DNA from: a virus
Strand: one strand, 5' to 3'
Length of the DNA: 56,258 nucleotides
IMG/VR virus record: IMGVR_UViG_3300030106_005597
Coordinates: 2,959-59,216 of that record
In this document: positions 17,548 to 46,689 of the stretch, in pieces
Layout of the letters: every line of letters begins with the position of its first letter
Position numbering within the stretch: position 1 is the first letter of the stretch
Made by a program: the position numbers and the translations under genes
The notes under the pieces: model-generated
Told to the model about the DNA's origin: nothing
Databases searched by the model: none
What the model saw: only the letters and a program-made list of their open reading frames with translations

Positions 17548-18418
17548 TCACGATGCGGTAAGAAAACCAATTTGGAAAGAAAAACCTGAAGACCAAACTA
17601 AAGTATATACAAACGAAGATACTTATCAAACTATAAAAGAAGCTAGAAATACAACTAATGAACATGGTGATTTACATTTGTTTGTGGCCACACCTTGTCA
17701 TTCAGAGGTATCCATGCATTATGTGAATGCTATAATTAGCTTAACCAAAGCATGTCATAAAAGAAATATACCTATAGAGTTTTCATTAATTAAATCTTCA
17801 TTAGTTACACAGGGACGTAACTTATGTGTATCAGGTTTTTTAGACTCAAAAGCTTCACACTTACTTTTTATAGATTCTGACATATTTATAAATTCATCTA
17901 CTATATTTAAAATGGTAAAAGCGGATAAAGACGTAATTTCTGTGCCATATCCTCTAAAAGCTTTTTTGTGGGATAAGTCATTACAACAAGTTAAAGAGGG
18001 GTTAATAAAAACACCTGAGCAATTAGCACAAGCTGGTAATACTTATCCAATGAGAGTTCCAGATAAAAAAGATATTCAAATAAATAATGGTGTCATAGAA
18101 GTAACTCATAGCCCAACAGGAGCAATGCTAATTAAAAGATCAGTTTTTGAAAAAATGATTAAAGCCTATCCTGATAAAGAAATAAGACAGAACACCGTGA
18201 TAAATAGCCAATTAATAACAAAAAAGAATATGTGGAACTTCTTTGATACAATACATGACCCAATAGATAAGTCATATTTAGGAGAGGATTTTGGTTTTTG
18301 TAGACTTTGGAAAGACATAGGAGGCAAGTGCCATGCTTATGTGCTTGATGAAATCACACACGTTGGGGAGCATCAATATATAGGTAAATTCGCTGATGAG
18401 TTGATAAAGATTAAGTAA
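17522..18418 (+). CDS. GT-A glycosyltransferase-like protein
   Basis: A 298-residue protein with a GT-A-type core: LHLFVATPCHSEVSMHYVNA at about residue 51, the metal-binding DSD in HLLFIDSDIFINSS near residue 120, and the C-terminal GEDFGFCRLWKDIGGKCHAY with DEITHVGEH, whose Glu-Asp is typical of the catalytic base region. Related proteins are frequent in marine phages. The N-terminal 45 residues are charged and probably flexible. It overlaps the GT-B gene, implying co-expression. Substrate unknown; glycosylation of tail fibre or capsid is the likeliest guess. Confidence 0.75.
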   Translation: MSDNPQGYDHDAVRKPIWKEKPEDQTKVYTNEDTYQTIKEARNTTNEHGDLHLFVATPCHSEVSMHYVNAIISLTKACHKRNIPIEFSLIKSSLVTQGRNLCVSGFLDSKASHLLFIDSDIFINSSTIFKMVKADKDVISVPYPLKAFLWDKSLQQVKEGLIKTPEQLAQAGNTYPMRVPDKKDIQINNGVIEVTHSPTGAMLIKRSVFEKMIKAYPDKEIRQNTVINSQLITKKNMWNFFDTIHDPIDKSYLGEDFGFCRLWKDIGGKCHAYVLDEITHVGEHQYIGKFADELIKIK

Positions 18419-36413: not shown

Positions 36414-36451
36414 CAATTCATGTTTTTACAAATACTAACAAAGAGGTTATC

Positions 36452-41141: not shown

Positions 41142-41259
41142 ATTAATAGAATTGTTTAAAAATCTTTTAAACTTAGATTATAGAGTTAGAAGATTAGAAC
41201 GTGCAAAATATTGGAAAGAGAAATATCATGGGACTAAAGAAAAAAGCATTAAGAACTGA
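41134..41259 (+). CDS. 41-residue amphipathic basic protein
   Basis: The frame reads MFRLIELFKNLLNLDYRVRR and LERAKYWKEKYHGTKEKSIK: an amphipathic N-terminal helix followed by a basic helix. It overlaps the previous gene by eight bases and the terminase small subunit by 32. Small proteins of this kind precede terminase genes in related phages in my recollection. Function unknown. Confidence 0.55.
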   Translation: MFRLIELFKNLLNLDYRVRRLERAKYWKEKYHGTKEKSIKN

Positions 41260-41752
41260 ATCAGATCTTACTCCTAAACAAAAAATGTTTGTTGAGATCT
41301 ATGTCAAAGATTGGGGATCTATTACACAAGCTGAGGCTTTAAAACGTGCTGGCTATGTTTGTAAAAATGAAAATGATTATGGATCCATTGCATCAAGATT
41401 GCTTTCAAGAAAAGCAAACCCTCATGTTGCGAACTATTTTGATAAAAGATTTAGTAAAGAACTTAAAATGTATGAAGGTGACAACCTCAGAAGATTCAAA
41501 AGATTAGATAGGCTTGCAGATAAAGCTGAGAAGAAAGATCAATACGCAGCTGCGATCAATGCAGAATATAGATCTGGACAATTAGCTGGTGCCTATGTTG
41601 ACAGAAAAGAAGTTAGAGTAACAGGTCTGGAGGGTATGTCACGTGAAGAACTTGAAAACAAACTCAAAGAGCTTGACAAAAAAATCGATGGTTACAACGC
41701 CAAAACGATTGAAGTTGAGCCAGAGCACGTTGAACAAATTGAAAAAAGCTAA
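41228..41752 (+). CDS. terS: Terminase small subunit
   Basis: A 174-residue protein of the Terminase_2-like family that recognises phage DNA for packaging. The N-terminal helix-turn-helix region is seen in DLTPKQKMFVEIYVKDWGSI, TQAEALKRAGYV and ASRLLSRKANPHVANYFDKR; the middle is a coiled coil for oligomerisation (LRRFKRLDRLADKAEKKDQY) and the C-terminus is acidic. I use ATG 41228 (GGAAAGAG upstream). It is unusually far, about 3.5 kb, from the large subunit gene, with the GC-rich island between them. Confidence 0.75.
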   Translation: MGLKKKALRTESDLTPKQKMFVEIYVKDWGSITQAEALKRAGYVCKNENDYGSIASRLLSRKANPHVANYFDKRFSKELKMYEGDNLRRFKRLDRLADKAEKKDQYAAAINAEYRSGQLAGAYVDRKEVRVTGLEGMSREELENKLKELDKKIDGYNAKTIEVEPEHVEQIEKS

Positions 41753-41852: not shown

Positions 41853-42132
41853 CATACCTAAAAAAGTTAGAAGTGAAATTGAGAAATATCCAATGGTCTC
41901 GGTTGAGTGGTATGATATTGTATCCGACAGCTCATGGAGTACATTTGACCAGCTCAGGAAGGCGAAGCTGGCGACTTGTATAACCAAAGGACATTTGCTT
42001 AGTCAAACAAAAGGTGTTACTAGAGTATTTGGTGACTACTCATTTGGTGATGATGGTAAGAGTATTGAGTCAATAGGAAATACCACTGTTATCCCTAATT
42101 CTGTAATCAAAGATATAAAAAAACTGACTTGA
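41836..42132 (+). CDS. Conserved marine-phage protein
   Basis: A 98-residue protein with KYPMVSVEWYDIVSDSSWST, KLATCITKGHLLSQTKGVTR and VFGDYSFGDDGKSIESIGNT, a pattern widespread in marine phages; the WYDI-x-SDSSW stretch is characteristic. The fold is probably a small beta barrel. It overlaps the upstream small gene and its TGA overlaps the nuclease ATG. Function unknown, though it is regularly found near small nuclease genes. Confidence 0.65.
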   Translation: MKKKISIPKKVRSEIEKYPMVSVEWYDIVSDSSWSTFDQLRKAKLATCITKGHLLSQTKGVTRVFGDYSFGDDGKSIESIGNTTVIPNSVIKDIKKLT

Positions 42133-42533
42133 TGAAACGAAATATAAACCAAGAAAAATTACTATGGCATAGAACTAAAAAAGGCCTGACTGAATGCTAT
42201 CTAACCCGCATAGAAACTAGCACAATCAATGGTGTTCCTGATGTTCATGGTGTTCACAAAAGCGGAATATTTTGGATTGAATTAAAATCAGATCAACTCA
42301 GTTATCCCAAGCTTAATAAATGGCAAATAGTATGGATTAATAAATATATTAAGGCAGGTGGTAATGTTTTTATCTTGAAAGAGACCCTCTCGAAGAGGTC
42401 TCTTAAACTCTACAGACCAGTGTCCGTGTTTACGGATCCTCGTTCACTGGTGCCGTGTCGCTCGTTCTCGTTTCCTTTACGATGGCCAACGGTGCAGCAG
42501 GAGCTGGTGAATCTTCTCCAGGAGGCAGCGTGA
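42132..42533 (+). CDS. VRR-NUC nuclease
   Basis: A 133-residue nuclease with the VRR-NUC fold: NGVPDVHGVHKSGIFWIELK gives the catalytic PD and E-x-K, followed by YPKLNKWQIVWINKYIKAGG and VFILKETLS. Phage members process branched or recombining DNA. The natural domain ends near residue 93; the last 35 to 40 residues (PVSVFTDPRSLVPCRSFSFP on) are read through two hairpins and the first CTCGTTCTCGTTT repeat into the GC-rich island, and probably are not part of the fold. The start overlaps the previous stop (TGATG). Confidence 0.8.
   Translation: MKRNINQEKLLWHRTKKGLTECYLTRIETSTINGVPDVHGVHKSGIFWIELKSDQLSYPKLNKWQIVWINKYIKAGGNVFILKETLSKRSLKLYRPVSVFTDPRSLVPCRSFSFPLRWPTVQQELVNLLQEAA
42380..42403 (+). 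other. Hairpin inside the nuclease gene end
   Basis: AGAGACCCTCT-CGA-AGAGGTCTCT pairs along 10 bp with one bulged C. It lies at the end of the conserved VRR-NUC domain coding region and may be an internal terminator or the start of the structured island. Confidence 0.55.
42416..42451 (+). other. Nested hairpin
   Basis: An outer stem ACCAGTG/CACTGGT (42416-42422 with 42445-42451) encloses an inner hairpin TCCGT-GTTT-ACGGA (42423-42436). Perfect pairing in both stems suggests selection for RNA or DNA structure although it is in a reading frame. Confidence 0.55.
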
Positions 42534-42840
42534 AGCTCGTTCTCGTTTCAAGACCTCCTTCCTCGTTCTCGTTTATAGACACAGAACAGGGGCCCCTGGA
42601 TCTGCAGCTGGGGCTAACCCCCCAGGGAAGCTCGTGTCGTTTCTCGCCCTCGTTTCTTTCCCTCTTTGTTAGTTAGCGGGGGCAAGAAACGACATCCCCT
42701 GCAGCTGGATCTCGTTCTCGTTTCAAAGGACACCGAAACCTCGTCCTCGTTCTACTAGGATAGCACCCCCCTGGATCTCCCAAAGCTGGGGAGCTACCCC
42801 CCAGCACCACAGATGTTCACCACATCTCGTTTACGTTAAC
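42461..42840. repeat. GC-rich island with two repeat families
   Basis: CTCGTTCTCGTTT is present in four exact copies (42461, 42536, 42562, 42711), with variants at 42740 and 42826. CTGCAGCTGG occurs at 42602 and 42699, and again at 42884. Two similar G/C hairpins, CTGGGG...CCCCAG (42608-42625) and GCTGGGG...CCCCAGC (42785-42805), follow this pattern, and a long stem pairs GTCGTTTCT at 42636 with AGAAACGAC at 42685. I see no convincing gene between 42534 and 43061. The base composition differs sharply from the AT-rich surroundings. Confidence 0.75.
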
Positions 42841-42945
42841 AAATGTAAAGGTTTGATACCTCGTTTTAGGAGGGGACTGGCACCTGCAGCTGGAGGCTGA
42901 TGACATCTAGGACTCCGCTGCTGGTAAAAGCTCGAAAGAAAGGAC

Positions 42946-42974
42946 TTGACATCTATCCCATCATATCTTATGTA
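42946..42974 (+). promoter_or_regulatory. Promoter within the GC-rich island
   Basis: Consensus TTGACA (42946-42951), 17-base spacer, TATGTA (42969-42974). The expected start is about 42981, which is exactly the first base of the structured leader below. Confidence 0.6.
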
Positions 42975-42980
42975 AGCATA

Positions 42981-43038
42981 GATCCTTGTAGCTGGTGCCT
43001 GTGCAACGAAGGGCAAGCCCTACCAATGCGCAAGGATC
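42981..43038 (+). promoter_or_regulatory. Candidate structured RNA leader
   Basis: GATCCTTG (42981-42988) pairs perfectly with CAAGGATC (43031-43038). The enclosed 42 bases contain GGGC-AA-GCCC (43011-43020) and a possible GGT/ACC pairing. The transcript from the promoter at 42946 would begin at the first base of the outer stem, and the AGGAGG site of the 43062 gene lies 13 bases after it. It could be a riboswitch-like leader, a processing signal or a small RNA. It matches no riboswitch class that I recognise. Confidence 0.5.
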
Positions 43039-43061
43039 CTTAACTAACAAAGGAGGATCTC

Positions 43062-43355
43062 ATGATCAGTAAAAAACTAATAAATCAAATGAACGAGTAT
43101 TACGGATGTGAATACATTGTTACGGAAAAGCCGAAGAAGCAAAAGCTGCCGAAGAAGCAAAAGCTCAAGACAATTGTTGAACAAATCAACAAAGAGAATG
43201 CGCCACCGGATGGCTGGAGAAAGGAAGATGCCGCACCGAAGGATCCTGGTCCTCGCCCGGGTAAAGTATACGCTTTGACTGGCGGACCCGGCACAGCATG
43301 CATCGCTGCAGGTAACAGCTGGGAAGAAAGTGTGGTGAAGGAGGATGAAGCCTGA
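43062..43355 (+). CDS. Unknown protein in the GC-rich island
   Basis: A 97-residue protein with AGGAGG five bases before the ATG. The N-terminal third is AT-rich in codon use and Lys-rich (EYIVTEKPKKQKLPKKQKLK). The C-terminal half is GC-rich and Gly/Pro-rich (PGPRPGKVYALTGGPGTACI), unlike neighbouring genes. A structured leader and a consensus promoter stand upstream, so it is probably expressed. No family recognised. The change in composition within the gene suggests that it was joined to, or has been altered by, the surrounding island. Confidence 0.5.
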   Translation: MISKKLINQMNEYYGCEYIVTEKPKKQKLPKKQKLKTIVEQINKENAPPDGWRKEDAAPKDPGPRPGKVYALTGGPGTACIAAGNSWEESVVKEDEA

Positions 43356-43366
43356 CCTGGCTAGTG

Positions 43367-43456
43367 ATGTACCTCATCGTGCTTTTCATATGGCCAACCT
43401 TCGCGTTGGCCATAGGTGCAGCTGTCGTCCTCGCGCTCGTTGGGGTGCTCGGGTGA
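43367..43456 (+). CDS. Possible 29-residue membrane peptide
   Basis: The frame encodes MYLIVLFIWPTFALAIGAAV and VLALVGVLG, a near-perfect membrane helix. It opens 11 bases after the stop of the 43062 gene. A CTG at 43352 in the same frame is best spaced from an AGGAGG site (43339-43344), so the true start may be upstream of the ATG. Because GC-rich DNA gives chance hydrophobic frames, this is a tentative call. Confidence 0.35.
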   Translation: MYLIVLFIWPTFALAIGAAVVLALVGVLG

Positions 43457-43596
43457 GTCTCGCTCGTTTGAAGCAGGAGCTGCTGGATCCAGGAACTGCT
43501 GGTGGTGAGCTTCCCCCCGTGCTGTACATGATTCTGATGCAAGTTCATAGATTCGCTTTTTAGAATGGTTCTAAAAAATAATTGTTGTAATGCTCG

Positions 43597-43611
43597 TGGG
43601 ATTTGATAAGA
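43597..43611 (+). promoter_or_regulatory. 15-bp repeated promoter-region motif, copy 1
   Basis: TGGGATTTGATAAGA occurs here and, exactly, at 44391-44405. A TTGTTG lies 14 bases upstream. It is found in the spacer before the 43696 gene, about 85 bases from the start. Within 43457-43695 I otherwise see only A/T-rich sequence and the end of the island. Confidence 0.55.
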
Positions 43612-44405: not shown

Positions 44406-44450
44406 CAAGCAAGTATTCATAAGAATACATAACTTAACAAAGAGGTAAAA

Positions 44451-45036: not shown

Positions 45037-45042
45037 ACCAAC

Positions 45043-45068
45043 AGCGTGGCCACTAGCGTGGCCACGCT
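45043..45068. terminator. Combined direct and inverted repeat before terL
   Basis: AGCGTGGCCA is directly repeated at 45043 and 45055, and the first copy pairs perfectly with TGGCCACGCT (45059-45068) around CTAGCG. No T-run follows. The remaining spacer to 45210 has a 12-base palindrome ATTTTTAAAAAT (45110-45121) and a mini-hairpin AGCG-AAA-CGCT. It could be a terminator, a terminase recognition site or both. Confidence 0.6.
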
Positions 45069-45167
45069 ACCACCACGCCTTAGAAGGCTCACAATCTTAA
45101 ACAACCTGCATTTTTAAAAATCGACAACCCGACCGCGTTGCCTGGACTGGCTTGCTGAGCGAAACGC

Positions 45168-45195
45168 TTTACAAAGCAATATACATAAATATACT
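45168..45195 (+). promoter_or_regulatory. Promoter of the large terminase gene
   Basis: TTTACA (45168-45173), 16-base spacer, TATACT (45190-45195). The expected start near 45202 leaves a leader of only about nine bases, with no clear Shine-Dalgarno before the ATG at 45211. Confidence 0.5.
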
Positions 45196-45210
45196 AGGGT
45201 CCCAAACGGT

Positions 45211-46689
45211 ATGAATTTAGAAAATCTAACAACAGATGAAATAAAAGATATAATTTTGCAAAAGCAATTGCAGTGGATCAAGTTATGCCAGGATAATTTT
45301 ATTATTTTTGCAGAGACTGTGTGGGAAGATTTTATTTATAGAAAAACAAAGGACCCAAAAAACTATGGGCACCACCAAATTATTGCTGAATCTTTTCAAG
45401 ATATTGCTGACGGTGATGCTAAGAGGCTCATCATTAATATGCCTCCAAGACATACTAAATCTGAATTTGCATCTTATCTTTTTCCTGCTTGGTATATTGG
45501 AAAGTATCCTAAGAAAAAAATAATGCAGGTATCACACAACGCTGAACTTGCTTCTAGATTCGGTAGTAAGGTTCGTAATTTAATGAACACAGCTGAGTAC
45601 AAACAAATTTTTGGAAATGTAACTTTAAGAGAAGATAGTAAGGCAAAAGGACGTTGGGAGACCAATCATGGTGGGGAATATTTTGCAGCGGGTGTTGGCG
45701 GTTCTATCACAGGACGAGGGGCGGACTTACTTATTATTGATGACCCACATACTGAACAAGACTCAATGTCGGATTCTGCCATGGACAGAGCTTACGAGTG
45801 GTATAGTTCAGGACCCAGACAGCGTTTGCAACCAGGTGGTCGTATCTTAGTTGTAATGACCCGGTGGGCGGTAGACGATCTTACTGGAAGGCTCATCAAG
45901 GCACAATCAGAACCAAAAGCGGATAAGTGGGATATAATTGAGTTTCCTGCAATATTACCAAACGACAATCCTGTTTGGCCTGAGTATTGGTCAAAGGAAG
46001 ATTTAGATTCTGTCAAAGCTTCAATCTCAATGAAAAATTGGAATGCACAGTATATGCAGGACCCAACTTCAGAAGAAGGAGCTATTATTAAAAGAGAATG
46101 GTGGCAACCATGGAACGAGGAACAACTTCCAAAACTGTTACACGTAATACAAAGTTATGATACTGCATTTTCCAAAAAAGAGTCTGCGGACTACTCAGCT
46201 ATAACAACATGGGGAATATTTGAACCTGTTGAGGGTTATGAAAAATGTATAATACTTTTAGATGCTATGAAGGGAAGATATGACTTCCCAGATTTAAAAA
46301 ATGTTGCTTTAGAGCAATATCAATATTGGGAACCGGAAACCGTAGTTATTGAGGCTAAAGCTTCAGGACAGCCTCTGATACACGAGCTAAGACGTGCAGG
46401 TATACCTGTAATAGATTATGTGCCTGCAAGAGGTAGAGACAAGCATACACGTATAAATAGCTGTGCACCTGTCTTTGAGTCTGGCATGGTTTTTGCACCT
46501 ACAGATGAACATTTTGCACAAGAGGTTATTGAGGAATGTGCAGCATTTCCTAATGGCCAGTATGACGACTATGTAGACAGTATGACCCAAGCTGTGTTAA
46601 GATATCGGCAAGGTGGATTTGTAAGTACCTATTCTGATGATTGGGATGACCCACCAATAAAATTAGAAAAGGAATATAAATATTATTAG
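45211..46689 (+). CDS. terL: Terminase large subunit
   Basis: A 492-residue packaging motor. The ATPase half shows the Walker A-like NMPPRHTKSEF (residues 76-86), Walker B LLIIDDPH (173-180), and VVMTRWAVDDLTGRLI. The RNase H-like nuclease half shows QSYDTAF (Asp317), VIEAKASGQPLI (Glu381) and YDDYVDSMTQA (Asp453/Asp456). It binds the portal at the capsid vertex and cuts DNA. The Walker A has Thr where related terminases usually have Gly (RHGKS). It has its own promoter and starts the morphogenesis block. TerS lies 3.5 kb upstream. Confidence 0.95.
   Translation: MNLENLTTDEIKDIILQKQLQWIKLCQDNFIIFAETVWEDFIYRKTKDPKNYGHHQIIAESFQDIADGDAKRLIINMPPRHTKSEFASYLFPAWYIGKYPKKKIMQVSHNAELASRFGSKVRNLMNTAEYKQIFGNVTLREDSKAKGRWETNHGGEYFAAGVGGSITGRGADLLIIDDPHTEQDSMSDSAMDRAYEWYSSGPRQRLQPGGRILVVMTRWAVDDLTGRLIKAQSEPKADKWDIIEFPAILPNDNPVWPEYWSKEDLDSVKASISMKNWNAQYMQDPTSEEGAIIKREWWQPWNEEQLPKLLHVIQSYDTAFSKKESADYSAITTWGIFEPVEGYEKCIILLDAMKGRYDFPDLKNVALEQYQYWEPETVVIEAKASGQPLIHELRRAGIPVIDYVPARGRDKHTRINSCAPVFESGMVFAPTDEHFAQEVIEECAAFPNGQYDDYVDSMTQAVLRYRQGGFVSTYSDDWDDPPIKLEKEYKYY

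Follow-up and report, generated by a model that had tools for sequence, protein, structure and literature searches.

Results

A GC-rich island between the terminase genes

The window, the whole 56,258-nucleotide stretch of DNA that we analysed, is part of a 59.2 kb virus record. TerL homology and the gene order terS-island-terL place it among the HTVC023P-type pelagiphages; its TerL is 70% identical over the full length to that of HTVC023P and 63.5% identical to that of HTVC027P. These phages are an abundant group of viruses of SAR11 ocean bacteria. The island lies in the interval between terS (41201-41752) and terL (45211-46689), where an earlier note on this DNA had rightly placed it. The features of the island, and those elsewhere in the window that bear on it, are as follows.

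42380-43560, no strand: GC-rich island, present at this position in each of the 47 relatives that contain both flanks
42132-42533, + strand: gene for a VRR-NUC (Holliday-junction-resolvase-like) nuclease, whose 3' 150 nt form the left part of the island
42439-43468, + strand: CTCGTT repeats, 15 copies, single or in tandem pairs
42636-42693, + strand: conserved hairpin RNA containing a 1x1 mismatch (z = -4.7; covariation; covariance model score 54.2 bits, E 1e-10)
42653-42676, + strand: loop of the hairpin, TTTCTTTCCCTCTTTGTTAGTTAG, whose sequence is antisense to ribosome-binding leaders
42946-42974, + strand: promoter TTGACA (42946-42951), 17 nt, TATGTA (42969-42974), with a conserved spacer element TCCCAT, seen in the sequence and in relatives
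43041-43052, + strand: leader of island ORF 43062, TAACTAACAAAG, 12 nt exactly complementary to the loop
43062-43355, + strand: small conserved cargo ORF of 97 aa, with homologues in most relatives
43364-43456, + strand: micro-ORF of ~30 aa, a single hydrophobic helix, with a similar ORF in 45 of 47 islands
43582-43610, + strand: promoter-like TTGTTG, 17 nt, GATAAG, with conserved TGGGATTT, before gene 43696 (alignment of relatives)
44435-44445, + strand: gene 44451 leader, TAACAAAGAGG, matching the loop complement over 11 nt and, judging from the relatives, the best conserved candidate target
36434-36446, + strand: leader of gene 36452, ACTAACAAAGAGG, 13 nt exactly complementary to the loop

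The raised GC reported earlier for 42380-43560 was borne out. GC makes up 51.6% of the island, whereas the mean for genome windows of the same size is 35.0% (sd 3.3); the next GC-richest window of the 56 kb outside it reaches 40.6%, and no other kilobase is as rich in GC. A TerL search in IMG/VR gave 80 relatives, and 47 contigs hold both flanks. In all 47, the interval from the VRR-NUC gene to gene 43696 measures 890-2145 nt and has 42-52% GC, between flanks of 31-36%. The island is real and no assembly artefact: misassembly, which the earlier note had named as a finding that would undo its reading, is excluded because dozens of independent contigs hold the island. As it lies at the same place in every relative tested, the island is old in the lineage; the suggestion of a recently acquired element is, as it was put, not supported, though the cargo genes do vary.

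Nor is the island nearly gene-free, as had been thought. About 46% of it is coding, made up of the 3' end of the VRR-NUC gene, ORF 43062-43355 and the micro-ORF at 43364-43456, and the truly non-coding DNA is 42534-43061 together with the tail beyond 43456. The VRR-NUC gene, which has weak matches to Hjc and to PHROG endonucleases and helicases, spans the GC step, and its tail (LYRPVSVFTDPRSL...) is kept in frame among relatives. ORF 43062-43355 has a conserved C-terminal motif, YALTGGPG.RCIANGNSW, and a protein model of low confidence. The model of gene 44451, two genes before terL, is a helix and a beta-hairpin, matching only unnamed phage proteins; neither gene 43062 nor gene 44451 has an antirepressor match in Pfam or PHROGs. 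The micro-ORF is unannotated, with a consensus near LLFMFPxxTLAxTGILxLSLVGIL, and its only likeness to small membrane peptides of phages or type I toxins is in size.

Other islands hold extra genes, some of the DUF7222 kind (Pfam E 3e-11) and some DUF2314-like (E 6e-4, which misses the cut-off); extra cargo of these two types was seen in the islands of L012, L019, L021, L025, L015, L018 and L029. Because the small genes vary between islands, the island is a cargo site, and because some islands have further promoter copies, they look like arrays of small cassettes. The earlier note would have given up its reading had related phages shown ordinary coding genes here: small genes are indeed present, but so is the RNA hairpin described below.

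The consensus promoter noticed earlier held up. Its pattern, TTGAC..TCCCAT....TC(T/G)TAT, is kept in nearly all relatives, though a generic promoter scanner omitted the site at 42946-42974 from its list. ATCCCAT or ATGGGAT also occurs in the spacer or -10 region of the promoters at 42946-42974 and 43582-43610 and of those in L200 and L201, and is possibly the site of a phage transcription factor. The structured leader proposed for ORF 43062 is weak (z = -1.5) and varies in length among relatives, and we therefore see no conserved structure there. The terL leader region (window 45037-45210) has a conserved hairpin in relatives, for example ACCAATGGCG...CGCCATTGGT, with no Rfam match; in the relatives it is followed by TTTACA-16 nt-TATACT and then by AGGGTCCCAAACGG just before the start codon.

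Both families of short exact repeats noticed earlier were found. The island's + strand has 15 copies of CTCGTT and its - strand has one; dinucleotide shuffles lead one to expect 0.3 on the + strand, and the highest count among 300 of them was 3. All 15 + strand copies of the 56 kb window fall in the island. (C)CTGCAGCTGGA makes up the second family. The relatives' islands contain the tandem CTCGTTCTCGTT 111 times in their 5' portions and 0 times on the other strand.

A structured RNA in the island

The earlier note had listed several perfect hairpins. One short perfect hairpin does lie at about 42785-42805, but there is a single strong one, of 18 bp and 89% paired. Its z score (42635-42694) is -4.7, and none of 200 shuffles was equally stable. 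The alignment of islands contains one near-invariant block, TTTCCCTCTTTGTTAG, which is always in the loop of a strong hairpin with a changing stem. We picked 78 segments by loop and place only, leaving folding energy out of the choice, and 74 of them are built alike, with a lower stem, a 1x1 mismatch and an upper stem whose length is 7-14 bp, in most cases 9-11. The mismatch is kept (U.U in 42 and C.A in 26 of the 74), and there are 20 distinct upper stems in which pairing is kept.

A covariance model built from 10 sequences matches the sense strand of 67 of 68 relatives. Compensatory change affects 15 of 17 stem pairs across 64 distinct sequences, and all measures lie above those of all 500 shuffles and all slid versions; the alignment behind these values has 70 rows, three of them antisense, and was fitted to the structure. 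The + strand is more stable in 73 of the 78 segments, which together have 154 G-U pairs on the gene strand and 41 on the other, and the true contrast is larger because a C.A mismatch reads as G-U on the other strand. Such a strand bias is absent from a DNA palindrome, so the conserved molecule is an RNA transcribed with the genes. The hairpin at 42636-42693 is thus shown by computation to be under selection as RNA, read in the gene direction, and the covariation and G-U bias support the earlier guess of a non-coding RNA locus.

We searched for this RNA among known families. Rfam gave nothing above gathering for the whole window or, at lax thresholds, for the island, where the best weak match, to a microRNA model (27.6 bits against a gathering score of 98), is the hairpin itself. 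No tRNA or tmRNA was found in the window, blastn of the island against phage records gave no match, and the literature searched on HTVC023P-type phages mentions neither a non-coding RNA nor an intergenic island. The hairpin is a real, previously unlisted and well supported structured RNA in a conserved cargo island.

Two other identities were tried and rejected. An intrinsic terminator calls for a GC-rich stem and a T-run, and there is no terminator-like site at the hairpin on either strand. A minus-strand RNA or gene, with the loop as its ribosome-binding site, is contradicted by the lack of a following start codon and by the + strand G-U bias.

The loop and the leaders of phage genes

The exact loop occurs in 56 IMG/VR contigs, of which 55 belong to the HTVC023P-type phage group and carry it beside VRR-NUC; the islands of L065, L075 and L077 have no loop match. 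Its reverse complement, CTAACTAACAAAGAGGGAAAGAAA, resembles the phage's own translation leaders. The three longest exact + strand matches in the window all fall on gene leaders, 13 nt at gene 36452, 12 nt at gene 43062 and 11 nt at gene 44451, and the - strand of the window has no match of at least 10 nt to the loop complement except the hairpin itself. Shuffled genomes give 0.8 matches of at least 11 nt each, so the numbers of matches alone are unremarkable; it is their positions that are remarkable. An energy-only target scan with RNAduplex was unselective because of G-U pairs and purine-rich DNA, and we therefore used exact complementarity.

Across relatives, the leader of gene 44451 is antisense to the loop over 10-17 nt in most genomes, and other genes' leaders typically share ~5 nt with it. 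Pairing between the loop and gene 44451 is poor in L008, L011 and L088. When loops were exchanged among 50 distinct loop/leader pairs for gene 44451, the pairing of the genomes' own loops was equalled in 2 of 10000 trials by energy and in 4 of 10000 by match length. For three leaders, own pairing beat exchanged pairing in every trial (0/5000 each). Several lineages have parallel variants of loop and leader, for example AACAAAAAGG in L060 and L094 and AACAAACAAAGAGG in L043. Controlled for VRR-NUC distance, the association between loop and leader is weak but positive (partial Mantel r 0.18, p 0.035). Shine-Dalgarno-like leaders do invite pyrimidine-rich complements. By computation, then, the loop is shown to be antisense in sequence to the ribosome-binding leaders of 44451, 43062 and 36452. 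The positions of the matches and the own-pair advantage, with an association that is weak after control for kinship, leave the antisense reading about evenly balanced.

Sister clades

The covariance model gave outgroup matches in HTVC027P (18.9 bits, E 0.016), 023Pt_psg01 (17.7 bits, E 0.033) and L277 (27.0 bits, E 0.0014), and no credible match in HTVC023P. The HTVC027P hairpin lies on the minus strand of MN698241, at about 18049-18100. The island is inverted in HTVC027P, relative to VRR-NUC, and in 023Pt. A direct search for the mismatched stem found 22 hairpins in the HTVC027P clade, where each genome has one or two; they follow the pattern RCUGAUCCC-U-G...C-U-GGGAUCAGY, their upper stems covary and their loops are unrelated. 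Their G-U pairs favour the sense strand by 54 to 19, which is weaker evidence here because the search itself required standard pairs. In the DNA searched, the HTVC027P and 023Pt loops show no antisense relation to phage leaders, and comparison of the HTVC027P-clade loops with their own locus and with SAR11 rRNA gave scattered short matches, the longest of 12-13 nt to rRNA.

Some further observations concern these phages. The outer stem CTGATCCC with a U.U mismatch is common to L201, L202 and 16 loci among L264-L326, and the loops of this clade measure 16-55 nt, some with an inner hairpin. In the published transcriptome of HTCC1062 infected by HTVC027P the island genes gp33 and gp34 form an 'extra temporal cluster', high at 6-9 h (PMC12753301). 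The terS-terL interval of HTVC027P and five relatives also contains the Flavobacterium-1 RNA (RF02976, 88-92 bits), inside the island or just before terL, and the window has no match to that covariance model. The Rfam matches to RF02976 are as follows.

L201, 6175-6295, - strand
L264, 7699-7816
L265, 3295-3417
L269, 5485-5606
L272, 394-515, - strand
L277, 3597-3714

Discussion

Our best explanation, to which as a whole we give roughly even chances, is that the island, a cargo locus of long standing and variable content, encodes a small structured RNA as well, and that this hairpin yields a c4-like antisense RNA switching off nearby phage genes. Such an antisense function is plausible. The hairpin would be part of, or cut from, a transcript running out of the terS/VRR-NUC operon; it lies on the same strand as ORF 43062, 0.35 kb upstream. 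Its loop would pair with the leaders of 44451, 43062 and 36452, cover the Shine-Dalgarno region and block translation, much as the c4 RNA of P1 and P7 does on ant mRNA. The block would last until the genes' own promoters, that at 42946 in the case of the island ORF, make an excess of mRNA. As the sister clade keeps the stem and changes the loop, the mismatched stem may be what stays constant, possibly as a site for a protein or an RNase, with specificity residing in the loop.

The same behaviour of the sister clade can be read in another way. The main rival is a role in cis, since conservation of the stem plan reaches further than that of the loop: the hairpin would be an element of a read-through mRNA, marking the end of the terS operon as either a transcription insulator or a site of RNase III-type processing, with a protein recognising its mismatched stem, and the anti-leader likeness would come from a pyrimidine-rich loop set against purine-rich leaders. 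The stem plan and mismatch persist in the HTVC027P clade with completely different loops, the hairpin sits just past the VRR-NUC stop and ahead of a new promoter, and the partial Mantel signal is weak, all of which fit this role. We nevertheless think it somewhat unlikely, because conservation within the window's clade is highest in the loop while the stem varies, and because the match of the loop reaches past the Shine-Dalgarno sequence into the AACTAAC part of the leader and is not found in other genes' leaders. The oriented repeats offer a different explanation, in which they are DNA sites, either an iteron replication origin or a pac site bound by the adjacent small terminase, and the hairpin is incidental. 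Fifteen short direct repeats on one strand adjoin terS, and HTVC027P and 023Pt appear by eye to have different oriented repeats of their own at the same place. However, the CTCGTT copies are spread over ~1 kb and partly within genes, the region is GC-rich, unlike most origins, cumulative skew makes no turn at the island, and the hairpin is conserved as RNA; we regard this explanation as improbable.

A target in the host seems more doubtful still. The loop would be antisense to the leader of a SAR11 gene for a TRAP-transporter solute-binding protein and silence that gene during infection. In a genome collection of 84,980 species, one genome per species, the 18-nt loop has 14 matches; three of these are in Pelagibacteraceae, and all three are antisense to the leader, TTTAACTAACAAAGAGGGAAAA, of the same TRAP gene. 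The window loop matches the TRAP leader over 19 nt, longer than any phage leader of the window. This leader varies among SAR11, though, and the motif is present in only 3 of 297 Pelagibacteraceae genomes, once at the TRAP gene, which weakens the case for host TRAP leaders as a general antisense target of the loop. The three matching strains are related, so that the match counts as about one event, and chance may account for it. We consider silencing of this host gene very unlikely. The genomes whose TRAP leader carries the 18-nt loop complement are the Pelagibacteraceae single-cell genomes L330, L337 and L343.

If the antisense reading is true, the hairpin is a translation-level switch that precedes the packaging and structural genes, and targets could be read out along the natural series formed by the sister clade's exchangeable loops. 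A more speculative idea, which we put forward as a long shot, is that HTVC023P-type phages carry a new class of regulatory RNA, with a constant chassis stem (its central U.U or C.A mismatch probably bound by protein) and exchangeable guide loops. The window's clade would have one fixed anti-leader loop; each genome of the HTVC027P clade would have one or two, changing fast and directed at other phage RNAs or at those of competitors or hosts. The terS-terL interval of HTVC023P-type phages deserves RNA annotation.

Comparison with known systems

Local hairpins sequester ribosome-binding sites in the early read-through mRNAs of T4-type phages. There, as would be the case here, an upstream transcript could carry a start-site mask that is absent from the mRNA made from the gene's own promoter; the mask in those phages is local, whereas the window hairpin would need a reach of 0.35-1.8 kb, unless it worked in trans.

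In phages P1 and P7 the loops of c4 RNA cover the ribosome-binding region of a phage mRNA (PMC12197685). Like c4 (RF01695), the window hairpin belongs to a phage, has a loop whose sequence complements ribosome-binding regions of phage mRNA, and is encoded on the same strand as one candidate target, upstream of it. It has no RF01695 match, either at gathering or, in the island, to E 5. It is a single hairpin with a conserved U.U or C.A mismatch, and its loop has a longer contiguous complementarity (10-17 nt) and several possible targets. c4 controls an antirepressor in the immunity region of temperate phages; the window hairpin lies outside any such region, beside the terminase genes and between terS and terL, in phages described as lytic, and its candidate targets have no antirepressor match. 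The hairpin would work like c4 if our inference is right, but it is not a member of that family.

The Flavobacterium-1 RNA is likewise a structured RNA in the terS-terL interval, in phages of the HTVC027P clade, but it is a different RNA, of ~120 nt, and was not detected in the window. HTVC027P and 023Pt differ from the window in their inverted islands and other hairpin loops, and GP88 proteins occupy the island of HTVC027P and HTVC023P, where they replace the cargo. HTVC023P, HTVC027P and 023Pt_psg01 nevertheless belong to the same phage group as the window, with TerL 60-70% identical, and share with it small genes in a terS-terL region of raised GC.
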